This document shows positions 6,059 through 29,042 of a stretch of DNA of 64,000 bases, piece after piece. A model generated the notes under the pieces. The model worked only from the letters and a program-made list of their open reading frames with translations. It made no database searches and was not told where the DNA came from. The stretch is from a virus. The first letter of the stretch is position 1; every line of letters begins with the position of its first letter. Where the stretch lies: the IMG/VR virus record IMGVR_UViG_3300045003_000080, positions 1 through 64,000 of that record; one strand, written 5' to 3'. The position numbers and the translations under genes were made by a program.

Positions 6059-6098
6059 TAGCGCTAGCGTTAGCGCTCGCTATTAGGCGGCTCGGTGA
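6059..6098. repeat. AGCGCTAGCG / CTCGCTATTAG repeat, copy A
   Basis: TAGCGCTAGCGTTAGCGCTC followed by GCTATTAGGCGGCTCGGTGA. This matches 17271-17311 with a few substitutions. The core is self-complementary and resembles an iteron or operator. Confidence 0.75.
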
Positions 6099-12381: not shown

Positions 12382-12878
12382 TGACCCTCACCACTGCCCA
12401 GCTCGCCGACCTTCGTGGCATCGTCGCGAAGCGCATCGGCGCGCCGGAGATCACCGAAGATCGGATGATCTGCCCGGCATGCGGGGGCGACGACTACGGG
12501 CCCAACATGCAACCCGGCGAAATGGACGTGTGGACCGTCGACAACCGGTTGCCGCTCTGGCTGCGCGGTGTGTGCGTCGATTGCGGGCACGTCCAGGAAC
12601 CAACCAGTTTCCACGTGATCGAAGCGGCCCCCGAGCATGTGCGTGAACTGTGGCTCGCCCCGGACGACTGGGTGCTGTGGCTGAATGCCCCGTTTCACGA
12701 GCTGCCCCGCCTAGAGCTTGCCTCGCGCCATGACGCGCTCAGGCCGTTCATCATCGCCGAACGACACCACCTGTTCGAAGTAATGCGCATCCACCCGGCG
12801 CTTGCGCTGGACAGCGACATGACGCGGCTACTCGACGGCTGGCAAGAAGACATCGCCGAACACTTCCCCCTCTTCTAG
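12381..12878 (+). CDS. zinc-ribbon protein of unknown function
   Basis: A 165-residue protein. CPACGG near residue 34 and CVDCG near residue 68 form a four-Cys zinc ribbon with about 30 residues between the pairs. The rest is Trp-rich and helical (LWLAPDDWVLWLNAPF) with a C-terminal amphipathic part. Coupled to the preceding gene by a TGATG overlap. The ribbon could bind nucleic acid or only stabilise the fold. Confidence 0.7.
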   Translation: MTLTTAQLADLRGIVAKRIGAPEITEDRMICPACGGDDYGPNMQPGEMDVWTVDNRLPLWLRGVCVDCGHVQEPTSFHVIEAAPEHVRELWLAPDDWVLWLNAPFHELPRLELASRHDALRPFIIAERHHLFEVMRIHPALALDSDMTRLLDGWQEDIAEHFPLF

Positions 12879-12886
12879 GAGCCCCC

Positions 12887-13180
12887 GTGACCGACACCGA
12901 CAATCTTCCCCTGATCGAGGCGTCTGACCTGCGTAAGTTGCTCGACGCGACGTGCGAAGACCCGGTTCTGTACCTCAAAGAGAGCGCCGACGGGGGCGAC
13001 CTGGGCGTGTGGGCGGAAGCCTACGTTCCGCATCCGTCGATCATCGTGCGTCAGTCCGAACTGTTGGACATGCTCACCGGCTGCGCCCCGGAACCGATCA
13101 CCACCGATGACCTGAAGTGGGCGGCCGAACAGCTACAGGACAACGTCGAACAAGCCGAACCCTGCCCCGACAACGACTAG
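12887..13180 (+). CDS. hypothetical acidic protein
   Basis: A 97-residue acidic protein starting at GTG 12887 with TAGGAGCCCCC upstream, the same spacing as in neighbouring genes. It begins with a helical segment (IEASDLRKLLDATCEDPVLY) and ends with an acidic helix. It is not recognised. Confidence 0.65.
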   Translation: MTDTDNLPLIEASDLRKLLDATCEDPVLYLKESADGGDLGVWAEAYVPHPSIIVRQSELLDMLTGCAPEPITTDDLKWAAEQLQDNVEQAEPCPDND

Positions 13181-15024: not shown

Positions 15025-16172
15025 CCAACAAGAGCGGCCCGATCGAGGGCGACTGGCACACGTCGCACGAAAGGCTCGCCGCATCGATCGAGGGCGCCTA
15101 CCGGGAGCGGCGCGCAGCCGAAACCCGACAAGAAGGGGGAACCATGTACCCGATGCGCCGCTTCCGCATCGAACTCGCGACCGAAGACAGGGACGTCACC
15201 GCGACGTCTTACCAGCTCGCGAACGGGATGTATCACTTCTACGGGCCGCCCCTCCCCGGCCTCGTCACAAGCACGCCCCGCCACAGTGTCCGGGCCGAAA
15301 ACGTGCTCGCCGTGTACGAGATCGACGACGCGCCGGCCACGCCGACACTCATCATGTCGGAGACCGACCTGCGCGCGCTGCCCATGGGGCTGATCGTGTC
15401 CGACGCGCGCGGACTGCGCGCCGAAACGTACATGACCCCGTACGGCGCCGACGCCCAGTTCTACATCAACGGCGCCCCGATCGACGCCCTGTATCCGCTC
15501 ACCGTGAACGCCGTCGACAACGCCGTCCGGCTGTGGTCGATGCCGGATGACGTCCGGTTCACAGACGCGGCCGGCCGCACGTGGGTCACGTGCTACGTGA
15601 ACGGCGTCTCGGCTGCCGTGATGCTGCCGGGCGGCAAGGATCAGGGGGTGTGGGTGGTCACGGAAGACAGCAACATGAACCTTCCGTTCCCGTTCACGTT
15701 CGCCGGCTACCCGATCACCGACGACGACACGGTGACCACCCGCCACATGGTGGCCCACTCGTTCGACACACTGTGGGGGCTCCCCGTCGGGCTGAGCCTG
15801 ACCGACCAGGGCGGCCACACCTGGCGCACCGTCGAGCACATGGGCGCCACCGGGATTCAGTACGTGGAGGACGGGCAGGTCGGCGAAGTCGTGTACGCGG
15901 GCAACTACCATGCGGCGTTGCCGGTGGACACGTCGGAGCTGTTCCCGTTCACGGTGGACACGTTCGACGGGCCCGGTGATCTGCTCCGGCTCGGCGCGGA
16001 CGTGAACCTGCGCGACGGCGACGGCGCCATGTGGAAGACGTACACGGGAGAGAAGGCGGGCGTGGGGCTGATGCCGGTTGCGCCTGGTTCGGATGAGTGG
16101 CACTGGCTGAACCCGGCTGATCCGGCGGTTCTGGATGGTGGGTTGGTGTACCCGTTCACCTACGTACCGTAG
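15021..16172 (+). CDS. phiSA1p31-like repeat protein, long form
   Basis: A 383-residue protein overlapping the previous gene by ATGA. After a charged N-terminus, three modules of about 75-90 residues share a D-x-x-G-x-x-W core: FTDAAGRTWVTCYVNG near 177-192, LTDQGGHTWRTVEHMG near 260-275, and LRDGDGAMWKTYTGEK near 330-345. Each follows a proline-rich strand (PVGLSL, PFTVDTF). The repeats suggest a beta-structured binding protein. Function is unknown. The gene ends just before a strong terminator. Confidence 0.65.
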   Translation: MTNKSGPIEGDWHTSHERLAASIEGAYRERRAAETRQEGGTMYPMRRFRIELATEDRDVTATSYQLANGMYHFYGPPLPGLVTSTPRHSVRAENVLAVYEIDDAPATPTLIMSETDLRALPMGLIVSDARGLRAETYMTPYGADAQFYINGAPIDALYPLTVNAVDNAVRLWSMPDDVRFTDAAGRTWVTCYVNGVSAAVMLPGGKDQGVWVVTEDSNMNLPFPFTFAGYPITDDDTVTTRHMVAHSFDTLWGLPVGLSLTDQGGHTWRTVEHMGATGIQYVEDGQVGEVVYAGNYHAALPVDTSELFPFTVDTFDGPGDLLRLGADVNLRDGDGAMWKTYTGEKAGVGLMPVAPGSDEWHWLNPADPAVLDGGLVYPFTYVP

Positions 16173-16211
16173 TACTGTACGACTGTCGCGCGGCTTGCGG
16201 CACAGAACGAA

Positions 16212-16248
16212 GCACCCCCCGGCATACGCGTCGGGGGGTGCTTTCGTG
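16212..16248 (+). terminator. intrinsic terminator of the 10-16 kb unit
   Basis: A perfect 10-bp stem GCACCCCCCG / CGGGGGGTGC (16212-16221, 16232-16241) followed by TTTCGTGT. It closes the operon that ends with the 383-residue repeat protein. Confidence 0.85.
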
Positions 16249-16311
16249 TGCGGCCCGGGGCGTTGGCGCTATGGGGTGCGAGGCCAGGTGGGGCTCCGGG
16301 CCAGCGTAGGG

Positions 16312-17127
16312 GGGCCCTGTGCGTTGCACTCATGGGAGGCGAAAGACATTTGGCACGGGGCCCGGCTTTTGGGGTTCCGGGCTGGCGTGATATGGGCGTC
16401 GCCGTTTCGTCGAGCCCGGAACCAGTCGGATAATAGCAGAAAGCCCCGTGCGCGGGTCCTTCGGGGAGCGGGACGATAGGGGGCACAGGGCTGACTCTGG
16501 TAGCCCCGGGCGCCTCTACTATGGGCGGCAGTCGAAATCTGACCCGGGGACTAGTCGGATGATAGCAGGAGGCCCCGAGCGGCACTACTCCGGGTGAACG
16601 TCCCTGGAATGGCTCGGGGCCCGCCTGCGCACCCCGTGCGGTTCCCATGAGGGCGGCGACGATGCATCGGCGCGGGGCAGTCAGGGTGTCCCGGGCGATC
16701 TGGCATTGGGCGGCGAAACATACCCGACCCGGGACGAGCATACAATAGCAGACGGCCCCGTGTGCGACCTCAACAGGGTGACGTGAGGGGTTCGACACGG
16801 GGCCGGCGTGCCTCAGGCGTTCAACACAGGGGCGCCGGAAGTGATTCGACCTGGGGCAAGTCTCGCGGCCCCGGGCGCATCCGCTATGGGTAGCGATATG
16901 TTCGAGGCCCGGGACCGATCCGATAATAACAGCCCTGTGCGGGACTCAATCGGGTGAACGGGCACTCATTGGCACAGGGCCAGCTCTGGGGTCCCGGGCG
17001 AAGAACTGACGGGTAGGCGTCTGAGACTAGGCCCGGGACTGTCAGATAATAGCAGAGGGCTCGGCGCGCAATCTGACAGGGCGACGGATGCTCTACGACG
17101 CCGAGCCCAGCTCTCGGGGTCCCGGGC
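16312..17127 (-). ncRNA. array of paired stem-loops, probable tandem small RNAs
   Basis: Six units of 125-185 bases. Read on the - strand, each consists of an extended -10 box (TGCTATTAT, TGCTATCAT, TGCTATTGT, TGTTATTAT, TGCTATTAT), a stem-loop with a GTCCCGGGC-type stem, and a second stem-loop with a variable stem. Second stems on the + strand: GCCCCGTGC/GCACAGGGC, GGCCCCGAGC/GCTCGGGGCC, GGCCCCGTGT/ACACGGGGCC, GCCCTGTGC/GCACAGGGC, GGGCTCGGCG/CGCCGAGCCC. The stems differ but stay paired, while loops of about 30 nt keep short motifs: CCCATA in most first loops and CGTTCACCC-like in second loops. This covariation points to RNA. The strand is inferred from the -10 boxes; wobble pairs favour - in most but not all stems. 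Confidence 0.65.
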
Positions 17128-17180
17128 GAAAGAACTACGGTGAGCGCTGGAACAGGGGACCAGGACCAGCGCATACGATA

Positions 17181-17245
17181 CCATACGGCGCCAATCGCAG
17201 GGGGATACGGGCCCCATACGGCGCCAATCGCAGGGGGATACGGGC
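17181..17245 (+). repeat. 33-bp tandem direct repeat, two copies
   Basis: CCATACGGCGCCAATCGCAG followed by GGGGATACGGGC occurs at 17181-17212 and identically at 17214-17245. ATACGGGCGCAAT at its end also occurs near 6026-6038. It lies directly beside the AGCGCTAGCG cluster, as would iterons of an origin or a partition site. Confidence 0.85.
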
Positions 17246-17270
17246 GCAATTACAAAAACGAAACCACCCC

Positions 17271-17311
17271 TAGCGCTAGCGCTAACGCTCGCTATTAGAC
17301 GACTCGGTGAA
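17271..17311. repeat. AGCGCTAGCG / CTCGCTATTAG repeat, copy B
   Basis: TAGCGCTAGCGCTAACGCTC followed by GCTATTAGACGACTCGGTGA. It matches copy A at 6059-6098. The downstream AGCGCT block lies 311 bases away here and 317 bases away in copy A. Confidence 0.75.
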
Positions 17312-17822
17312 TCGGTGAAAAGACACCACCACGCCCGGTGAAAAGCTCGCGCCCCCACGCCGTCACCCGAACGGGGGAAGCCCCGGGCCGGCGCGCGAAG
17401 GATGGTCGAAAAACGCAGCGACGTCAGCACACCGGCCCTTGCGGGCACCAGCCTGACGGGGAGCACCGCCCACGCGGAGCCACTATGGGCACCACTGAAA
17501 CGCTGGCGTGGACGGTGGCGGCTCCCCCCAGACACACCTACGCTATCACATCATGCTAACGACCAGGGCAGAGCTTGAAGCCGCTAGCGCTCAGCGCTAT
17601 ATCAGCGCTTTCCGGTTTTTCAAACACGGCGCCTCCCGGGCGCGCGCCGGCCACCCCGCCCGCGTCGGCCGGCGCCGGCAGCCCCCGCCTCGCACACGCG
17701 CGAGCGCGCGAGGGTATGTCAACGCCGGCGTATCAAGCTGCGAGTGTCAACGGCTTGACACGGGGCGCTTGGGTCCAACTTCACACGTTGCCAGACGCGG
17801 GGCACCCATGGCAAGGGGCACT

Positions 17823-17866
17823 TTTTCATCACGCAGACTTGACAATGTTAGGGAACGTGAGACGAT
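17823..17866 (+). promoter_or_regulatory. conserved accessory-block promoter, copy 5
   Basis: TTTTCATCACGCAGAC, -35 TTGACA (17839-17844), ATGTTAGG, -10 GACGAT (17861-17866, 16-base spacer). The -35 is consensus and the -10 is weak. Confidence 0.82.
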
Positions 17867-17902
17867 CGAGGCTCCGCACAACCCACCGACTAAGGGGCGA
17901 CC

Positions 17903-18442
17903 ATGGGACGCGCACCGATCATCGAAGACAGGTACTACGCCGACCGGACTAACCCCCTGATCATCGTGCGGCCCTGGTCCGTCGAACCGCGCGCCGTACA
18001 CCTTGACGTTATCCACCGCATGCACCGCGACCAGGCGCCCGACGACACCATGGGCAAAAGCGCGTTCCGGGCACAGTTCAAACTCATCACGCCCGAACCC
18101 CCGTGCGACCCTGCCCGCTACTACACCGTAGACCTTTGCCAGTGCTGCATGGTCATGCTCGCGAACGGCGACGGATGCCAGTGCGGAGACGACACACGCC
18201 AGCATCCGGCCGGACTCATGGGCAACCTGGTCGACGAGGAGATCACGCTCGGCGCACTCGCAGAGGAGCACGACAGCAAGTGTCCGGTCAACGTCTACGG
18301 GTCACACTCGCCCCTGCCGGGCGAATTCGAATGCGACTGCGAAACTGACACGTTCTCGGGCGTCCCGTGCGACGGATGCGGCACTCACCTCGCAGGGGAA
18401 CGCCGCAAGGCAACCGGTTGGGTCAAGGCTCCGGCTGAGTAG
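17903..18442 (+). CDS. cysteine-rich zinc-binding protein
   Basis: A 179-residue protein. About the first 75 residues look ordinary; then Cys clusters follow: LCQCCMVML and GCQCGDD near 85-100, KCPVNVYG and FECDCETD near 128-148, and CDGCGTHL near 155. These can form two or three zinc sites. The family is not recognised. The start is ATG 17903 after AAGGGGCGACC. Confidence 0.7.
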   Translation: MGRAPIIEDRYYADRTNPLIIVRPWSVEPRAVHLDVIHRMHRDQAPDDTMGKSAFRAQFKLITPEPPCDPARYYTVDLCQCCMVMLANGDGCQCGDDTRQHPAGLMGNLVDEEITLGALAEEHDSKCPVNVYGSHSPLPGEFECDCETDTFSGVPCDGCGTHLAGERRKATGWVKAPAE

Positions 18443-19887: not shown

Positions 19888-19952
19888 CGGCATCCATAAC
19901 TGAATATTGGCCCGTGTGGTCGCCACGCGGGCGGTAACGATTCGGTATCGTC

Positions 19953-19996
19953 TTTCATCACGCAGACTTGACAGAGTTAGCGGAGGTGAGACGATA
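19953..19996 (+). promoter_or_regulatory. conserved accessory-block promoter, copy 6
   Basis: TTTCATCACGCAGAC, -35 TTGACA (19968-19973), AGTTAGC, -10 GACGAT or ACGATA (about 19990-19996). Like copy 5 it pairs TTGACA with a GACGAT box. Confidence 0.82.
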
Positions 19997-25898: not shown

Positions 25899-26337
25899 TG
25901 ATGTGTGGTCGGCGTTGGCGAGGCAGTTGGCGGATGTGCGGCGTGTGCGGGGGTTGGGTGTGGTGGAGGTGGCGGCGCGTGTGGGGGTGCCGACCAGTCG
26001 ACTGGAGGAGTGGGAGGCGGGGGTGGGGTCTCCGTCGGTGTCGGAGTTTGTGGATTGGACGCTGGTTGTGGGGTGTGAGTTGGTGGTGCGGCCGAGTTTG
26101 AGGCGGGGGCGGGGTTCGGCTGCGATGGGTGCGTGGGAGCAAATCGTCAAGGTGTTGTCGGCCGAGTTGCCTTCGTATGGTGGGTGGTGTCCGTCGGAGC
26201 AGAAGTTGGCGGAGCGGTTCGGTGTGAGTCGGGGGATGGTGCGTCGCGCGTTGGAGGTGTTGCAGGGGCGTAGGTTGGTGGAGCCGGTGTGGGGGCGTGG
26301 GTGGCGTGTCCTCCACCCCGATGCTGCTACTGTATGA
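25882..26337 (+). CDS. transcription regulator, XRE-type HTH joined to a GntR-type winged helix
   Basis: A 151-residue protein. Residues 8-70 form an XRE/Cro-like HTH (ALARQLADVRRVRGLGVVEV, then GVPTSRLEEWEAG). Residues 80-148 form a GntR-type winged helix (MGAWEQIVKVLSAEL, SEQKLAERFGVSRGMVRRAL, QGRRLVEPVWGRGWRV). The effector domain usual in GntR proteins is missing. Two different DNA-binding domains in one short protein are rare. GAGAGG precedes GTG 25882. It is the best candidate in the window for a repressor or switch protein acting on the repeated operators. Confidence 0.8.
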   Translation: MSLTRSDVWSALARQLADVRRVRGLGVVEVAARVGVPTSRLEEWEAGVGSPSVSEFVDWTLVVGCELVVRPSLRRGRGSAAMGAWEQIVKVLSAELPSYGGWCPSEQKLAERFGVSRGMVRRALEVLQGRRLVEPVWGRGWRVLHPDAATV

Positions 26338-26615
26338 CGACCGTCCCTTCCATACTTCCAGCGTTCAGCCAGTAGTCGATCCGAGGGGGCGCTTGCCGGT
26401 CTCGTCCCGGTTCCCATACCGTGAACGCAGGCGTCCCCCTATTGCATAACGGTGCCCTAATGACGACCGGGGGACGCCACACCCCCAGTTTCGTGTTACC
26501 ATCGGTGTGCGGCCATGGTGCCGCTTCCGAGTCTGGTTGGCTTGGAACTCGCGGCCCTCGAATCCCTCACCGGTCGGGGGCCGCGACCCTTTCCCCTCCC
26601 GTTCGAGGAGCCCCC
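26338..26615 (+). other. intergenic region with paired hairpins
   Basis: It contains a perfect 10-bp inverted repeat GGCGTCCCCC / GGGGGACGCC (26430-26439, 26469-26478) with a 29-nt loop, a TTACCAT box near 26497-26503, and a second inverted repeat GCGGCCC/GGGGCCGC near 26551-26583. The spacing and loop size match the dual stem-loop family seen elsewhere in the window. Confidence 0.55.
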
Positions 26616-28822: not shown

Positions 28823-29042
28823 ACGCACTGCACGAGGTGCTGGGCAAGTAGCGCCCAAGTCGGCCCTTCCCCCCGGACCGGGAAGGGCCGACACCACAAC
28901 CAGTGCTCTCCCCAGCCTTCTCACGACACCCATACTGTCTCCGGGAGAGCACCCCAAACCGGGCGCGGCTCTCCGGACTCTTTTCGACACCCCGTGATGC
29001 TGCGAGAGCCGCACCCACCCCCATCAGTAGTATCATCCGCTC
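28810..29042 (+). ncRNA. dual stem-loop element upstream of the 29043 gene
   Basis: GTGTTATCGT (28810-28818) is followed by the 13-bp hairpin GTCGGCCCTTCCC / GGGAAGGGCCGAC (28859-28892) and by two long-loop stems: TGCTCTCCC/GGGAGAGCA (28904-28951, about 30-nt loop with ACACCCATACTG) and GCGGCTCTC/GAGAGCCGC (28965-29012, about 30-nt loop with ACACCCCGTGATG). The loop motifs echo those of the 16-17 kb array read on its - strand (CGCCCATA; CTCCCATGAGTG). Directly after lies TAGTATCAT, the -10 box of the next gene. Confidence 0.6.

Follow-up and report, generated by a model that had tools for sequence, protein, structure and literature searches.

TIGR-Tas proteins locate DNA by means of guide RNAs. 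In the stem-loop type of TIGR-Tas system, described by Faure et al. 2025 in Science (PMC12045711, section 9), a nuclease-less, Nop-domain protein called TasA accompanies tandem hairpins with variable palindromic stems and with two 8-12-nt spacers between box C and box D. The characterised example in that section has 13 units in three subarrays approximately 450 nt apart. In the dual-repeat type (TasR, TasH), the boxes given for TasR are CCA and UG (PMC12045711, section 8). Here we analysed positions 1 to 64,000 of the IMG/VR virus record IMGVR_UViG_3300045003_000080 (referred to here as the window, 64,000 nucleotides), which belongs to a 120-kb phage genome and contains a tandem array of hairpins on the - strand. 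Our data indicate, with a probability that we put at roughly 0.93, that this array is made up of guide RNA genes of a stem-loop TIGR-Tas system.

We found that the array (array 1) comprises 15 tandem hairpins at window 16252-17167, - strand, with one outlier at 17466-17515. The original prediction, made from the sequence alone, had recognised the tandem hairpins but had grouped them as six units of two hairpins each at 16312-17127. The stems measure approximately 10 bp and the loops 29-32 nt, the latter in agreement with the predicted length of about 30 nt. In an unbiased scan of the whole window, eleven 9-bp hairpins fell inside the 0.9 kb of the array, compared to approximately one per kb elsewhere. 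A scan that combined the stem with the loop motif found 30 hairpins scoring at least 14.5 in the 120-kb genome, compared to 1-5 per random sequence (six sequences of matched dinucleotide content); a hairpin listing based on a motif regular expression was too noisy and was not used. These scans confirm that the paired, selected - strand hairpins are real. The predicted covariation of the stems was likewise borne out, with 91% of cells paired among the hairpins of this phage, double changes at 10 of the 10 pairs and a score of 0.78, compared to 45-47% paired and a score of 0.18 when the partner was slid by one column; the figure for this phage overstates the case because the stems helped to select its hairpin set, while the tests in other phages are independent of that set. 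Stems covary in other phages too, part of those loci having been picked with a stem filter, and variable yet palindromic flanks that form the stem, as in stem-loop TIGR, are present in this phage and in the others.

The loops, read in the - strand sense, begin and end with C in nearly all copies, which places a C-C mismatch on top of the stem. Loop positions 12-19 hold the motif CG-N-Y-R-CCC, with CCC at positions 17-19 in most copies. Where two classes of loop had been described, there is one motif, whose linker is one base longer in some copies. The whole layout is CC(A/G)-9-CG-NNNN-CC(A/G)-9-CG, that is, two variable spacers, both flanked by a box C and a box D motif. The conserved loop motifs noticed earlier stand, but as box C/D-like anchors that frame a pair of variable spacers. 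We propose that each hairpin is one tigRNA-like unit with a variable, self-complementary stem, in which box C (CCA or CCG), an approximately 9-nt spacer A, box D (CG) and a 4-5-nt turn would be followed by box C', spacer B of approximately 9 nt and box D' closing the stem. The stem may then end in the box C/D pair, formed by its last C-G pair, and the C-C mismatch may correspond to the box position that follows and stays unpaired.

The same genome encodes a Nop-domain Tas that adjoins an array. Its gene (genome 109170-110087, 306 codons) lies beyond the window and starts 29 nt past the last hairpin of array 3 (genome 108464-109141, + strand). The protein matches the NCBIfam family TIGR_Tas_endo with 184.6 bits (2.3e-54; cut-off 100) and, among PDB sequences searched with phmmer, TIGR-TasR (9mty, 9.5e-10). 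A profile of 13 Tas relatives reached TasR at 9.7e-27 and TasH at 1.6e-14; one further profile search used six closer Tas sequences. An AlphaFold2 model of Tas has a mean predicted local distance difference test score (pLDDT) of 88.4, and Foldseek placed TIGR-TasR (9mty) and TasH at the top, followed by IS621 and Nop5. The N-terminal RuvC or HNH domain of the TasR and TasH subtypes was not found; Pfam gave no match, and Pfam, the AlphaFold2 model and Foldseek together revealed no HNH or RuvC nuclease domain, only a coiled coil and a Nop-like domain. Since no nuclease domain was detected, we class this Tas as TasA-like.

The search for homologues that had been suggested returned homologues in many actinobacteriophages. 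A loop pattern that is silent on stems and proteins returned 120 stretches from IMG/VR; a Tas homologue is likewise encoded, and almost without exception on the hairpin strand, in most of the stretches that have at least three stem-filtered hairpins, and in none that have fewer. In 76 tas loci picked by Tas sequence alone, 393 hairpins lie on the strand of tas versus 8 on the opposite strand. Units with strict boxes from these loci and three named phages are distributed similarly (321 on the tas strand versus 3), and 268 of the 321 have an exact 9-4-9 spacing. Array and tas share one strand across genomes. A covariance model trained on the hairpins of all arrays known at that stage (R3) recognises arrays in phages that are unrelated, with E values as low as 8.8e-6, while a model built from array 1 and the outlying unit only (R2) gave weak matches in relatives selected by their terminase. 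Both tas and convincing hairpins are absent from G001, a close relative of the window phage with 86% identity in the terminase. Three stretches (L168, L198, L201) hold arrays and no Tas was found in the part examined; Tas may lie farther off or outside. No Tas was found in PLSDB plasmids, a promoter-plus-stem scan of IMG/VR had no matches, and neither the array nor the genome showed DNA similarity to named phages.

Tas homologues are present in 84 named phage records, 76 of them from Mycobacterium phages, and are mostly annotated as 'transposase' or 'hypothetical protein'. In the three M. smegmatis phages that we read (SarFire, Euphoria and KyMonks1A), arrays lie directly upstream of tas; in Bxb1, another Fromanvirus, no gene is annotated as Tas or transposase. 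Orthologous units of these phages keep their stem and boxes while both spacers are replaced. For example, the orthologous stem cccgtcagc/gctgacggg carries differing spacer pairs among relatives (TTCGACGCA/TAGAACCAG versus TACGACGCA/ACCTGGACC), so that guides change faster than stems. The stem-loop type is now linked to phages in culture on M. smegmatis mc2 155, such as SarFire and Euphoria, whose guides differ between close relatives.

The replacement of spacers in kept stems fits guides and not a decoy. A sponge RNA whose repeated loops sequester a protein of the host, like CsrB or RsmZ, would account for the many copies, the single motif and the covarying stems, but not for two loop segments that are conserved in length, variable in sequence and exchanged between close relatives while the stems persist, and we regard it as highly improbable. 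Antisense small RNAs, whose C-rich loops would target ribosome-binding sites rich in G as in the actinobacterial 6C RNA, are very unlikely as well. The two to three C-rich-loop hairpins per promoter, the hairpin at +1 and the actinobacterial setting would suit them; however, CCC has a constant spacing and is flanked on either side by box C/D, and the hairpins go together with a same-strand Tas. While 6C RNA also consists of stem-loops with C-rich loops, neither its sequence nor its structure matches, and Rfam gave no 6C match even at E 5. At the gathering and E 5 thresholds Rfam returned nothing relevant and no family match at all. The original prediction had proposed a candidate new ncRNA family, but a new RNA family of unknown kind gives way to stem-loop TIGR arrays with a matching Tas gene.

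IS110-type transposons offer a different comparison, since IS621 bridge RNAs have a two-guide loop and their recombinase has a Nop-like RNA-binding domain. Tas shares this IS110 RNA-binding fold, and PHROGs labels it 'transposase', both of which would agree with relic or working bridge RNAs. Nevertheless, this origin is scarcely credible: we detected no DEDD/RuvC recombinase domain fused to the RNA-binding part of Tas, there is one tas gene, dozens of arrayed single-loop units take the place of one two-loop RNA, and the matches to IS621 are far weaker than those to TasR. Readings as anti-Shine-Dalgarno mimics, type III antitoxin repeats, CRISPR or terminators were dropped along with the sponge, antisense and bridge RNAs.

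With dual-repeat TIGR-Tas, this locus shares tandem 9-nt spacers, a box C of CCA and the protein fold. It differs in that box D is CG instead of UG, edge and loop repeats are lacking, no nuclease domain was found, and a 10-bp stem replaces the edge repeats. Archaeal and eukaryotic box C/D guide RNAs, including small nucleolar RNAs (snoRNAs), likewise carry guides flanked by box C and box D; their target differs from the one presumed here, DNA, and the likeness rests on boxes and guides. Some observations weigh against stem-loop TIGR-Tas as the identity of array 1. The box C of this phage is relaxed, with A or G and sometimes C or T as its third base, and the contig places array 1 at a distance of 92 kb from tas. 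NCBIfam labels the Tas family an endonuclease, while Pfam and the structural model reveal no nuclease domain. Finally, no natural target was found: when four geometries of spacer pairs were compared with 2.4 and 3.3 Mb of phage DNA, with SarFire, Bxb1, TM4 and Che8 among the phages, the matches were not above chance or mispaired controls.

The sequence TGYTATTRT occurs 5 times in the window versus 0.24 expected, and 4 of these occurrences are inside array 1, all on the - strand; TGCTATCAT at 16559-16567 is the fifth extended -10 of the array. The original prediction placed one such box in each unit of two hairpins; boxes on the - strand are indeed present, but the five of them head groups of 2-3 hairpins. 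The last base of each box is 6-8 nt ahead of the first base of a stem, so that +1 is expected on that stem. All units of array 1 lie on the - strand. Read along it, the array begins with H14 (17118-17167; weaker stem, motif CACC, R3 E 2.6e-4) and H13 (17058-17107). The box TGCTATTAT (17046-17054, a motif match) is followed by H12 (16990-17040) and H11 (16931-16981), and TGTTATTAT (16923-16931, a motif match) by H10 (16867-16916), H9 (16809-16858) and H8 (16754-16804). Downstream of TGCTATTGT (16742-16750, a motif match) are H7 (16687-16736), H6 (16630-16679) and H5 (16571-16621), and the fifth box, read from the sequence, precedes H4 (16502-16551) and H3 (16442-16492). A second TGCTATTAT (16430-16438), whose last base is 7 nt ahead of the outermost pair of H2 (16423), has H2 (16374-16422) as its first downstream unit, before H1 (16313-16362; R3 E 1e-6) and H0 (16252-16302; R3 E 1.8e-4). 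The outlying unit H15 (17466-17515) was detected by R3 at E 5.8e-5. Where the array ends on the - strand, a strong hairpin rich in GC (16209-16244, no strand assigned) is a possible terminator.

In the C-rich sense, the closing pair is C-G 21 times, U-G 5 times and U-A once, and a U-G wobble is feasible on that strand only. This is weak evidence for the strand when taken alone because wobble counts over whole stems are nearly equal (15 versus 12). Outside array 1, the C-rich strand runs with the direction of adjacent genes and tRNAs.

We infer the transcription, processing, DNA targeting and effect of the guides by analogy with described systems. Host RNA polymerase would use the host-type extended -10 promoters to produce - strand transcripts of 2-3 units, from which hairpins would be released and then bound by a dimer of the single TasA-like protein. 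By analogy with TasR, spacers A and B would each pair with a different strand of the target DNA. The nuclease-less Tas would most likely block transcription or replication of the target, or bend it; we propose this instead of cutting because no nuclease domain was found.

Model R3 and reading by eye together indicate approximately 40 hairpins of this family in the phage, at six or so places. In the window, array 2 lies on the + strand behind an extended -10 read from the sequence (TGCTACTGT, 26325-26333). It comprises a tentative unit at 26342-26391 (hairpin scan, motif by eye), a unit at 26387-26436 (R3 E 4.4e-4) and one at 26430-26478 (hairpin and loop-motif scans) whose 5' arm overlaps the preceding unit. 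Two more + strand units are at 28903-28952 (R3 E 2.9e-5) and 28964-29013 (R3 E 6.9e-5). Beyond the window, hairpins occur at genome 93382-93484 on the - strand and, inside a cluster of tRNA genes, at genome 99844-101877 on the + strand. Four hairpins begin 1-3 nt past a tRNA 3' end. Numbered on the stretch L003, they are at 16044 (after tRNA-Arg ending at 16042), 17769 (after tRNA-Lys ending at 17766), 17900 (after tRNA-Glu ending at 17899) and 18028 (after tRNA-Glu ending at 18027; E 0.01). The first three have E 0.5-0.75 alone and are supported by position and motif. Hairpins can also lie within tas itself: Actinomadura sp. WMMA1423 has tas and eight hairpins, two of them within the tas coding sequence, and hairpins are likewise found within tas in L220 and L203.

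The type of system is already known, while the layout differs from the characterised TasA example: approximately 40 units are spread over some six places as far as 92 kb from tas in contig distance, each promoter serves 2-3 units, and several units abut tRNA genes. In the main text of PMC12045711 we found no description of dozens of units over several loci, promoters every few units, tRNA neighbours or units inside tas, and its supplementary tables may list similar loci; relative to that main text, the dispersed layout appears new. A literature search for TIGR-Tas together with M. smegmatis phages found both terms only in PMC12045711, through the title of a reference. We tentatively hypothesize, without holding it probable, a dispersed form of TIGR-Tas in which each guide is a small gene in its own right, either with a promoter of its own or as part of a tRNA-guide dicistron. 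Such guides would serve a single distant Tas in trans and could move among phage genomes, even into the tas of other phages. If so, guides next to tRNAs might be matured by tRNA-processing enzymes, a bacterial parallel of the plant tRNA-snoRNA dicistrons that these neighbours resemble, and this might explain how guides of this kind mature. TIGR-Tas systems still pose the questions of their natural targets, maturation and array growth, in part because the loci known so far are mostly metagenomic. With the stem-loop type linked to cultured phages and guides found beyond the tas locus, including between tRNA genes, target, processing and spread become testable in a laboratory phage.

Other elements were observed nearby. 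A lone perfect hairpin of the family (E 0.0019) is present in a 100-kb relative phage (L110 14041-14090, - strand), with no Tas homologue in the part searched. At the upstream end of array 1, window 17181-17246 holds two 33-bp direct repeats of 97% identity. A palindrome-rich element, TAGCGCTAGCGCTAACGCTCGCTATT, occurs at window 17268-17298 and 6067-6092 as mutually inverted copies, the latter directly after a probable tyrosine recombinase gene. A promoter-like block (TTGACA...GTGAGACGAT) repeated ahead of several genes, at window 17840-17880 and 19945-19990, recalls the start-associated repeats of actinophages. Between window 26300 and 29050, further promoter-like TGnTAnnnT sites are followed by short non-coding stretches whose hairpins are unlike the guide motif and are possibly other small RNAs. 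Finally, repeated CCCGTACTAGTA palindromes form a cluster at genome 96.6-96.8 kb (L003 about 12830-12950).
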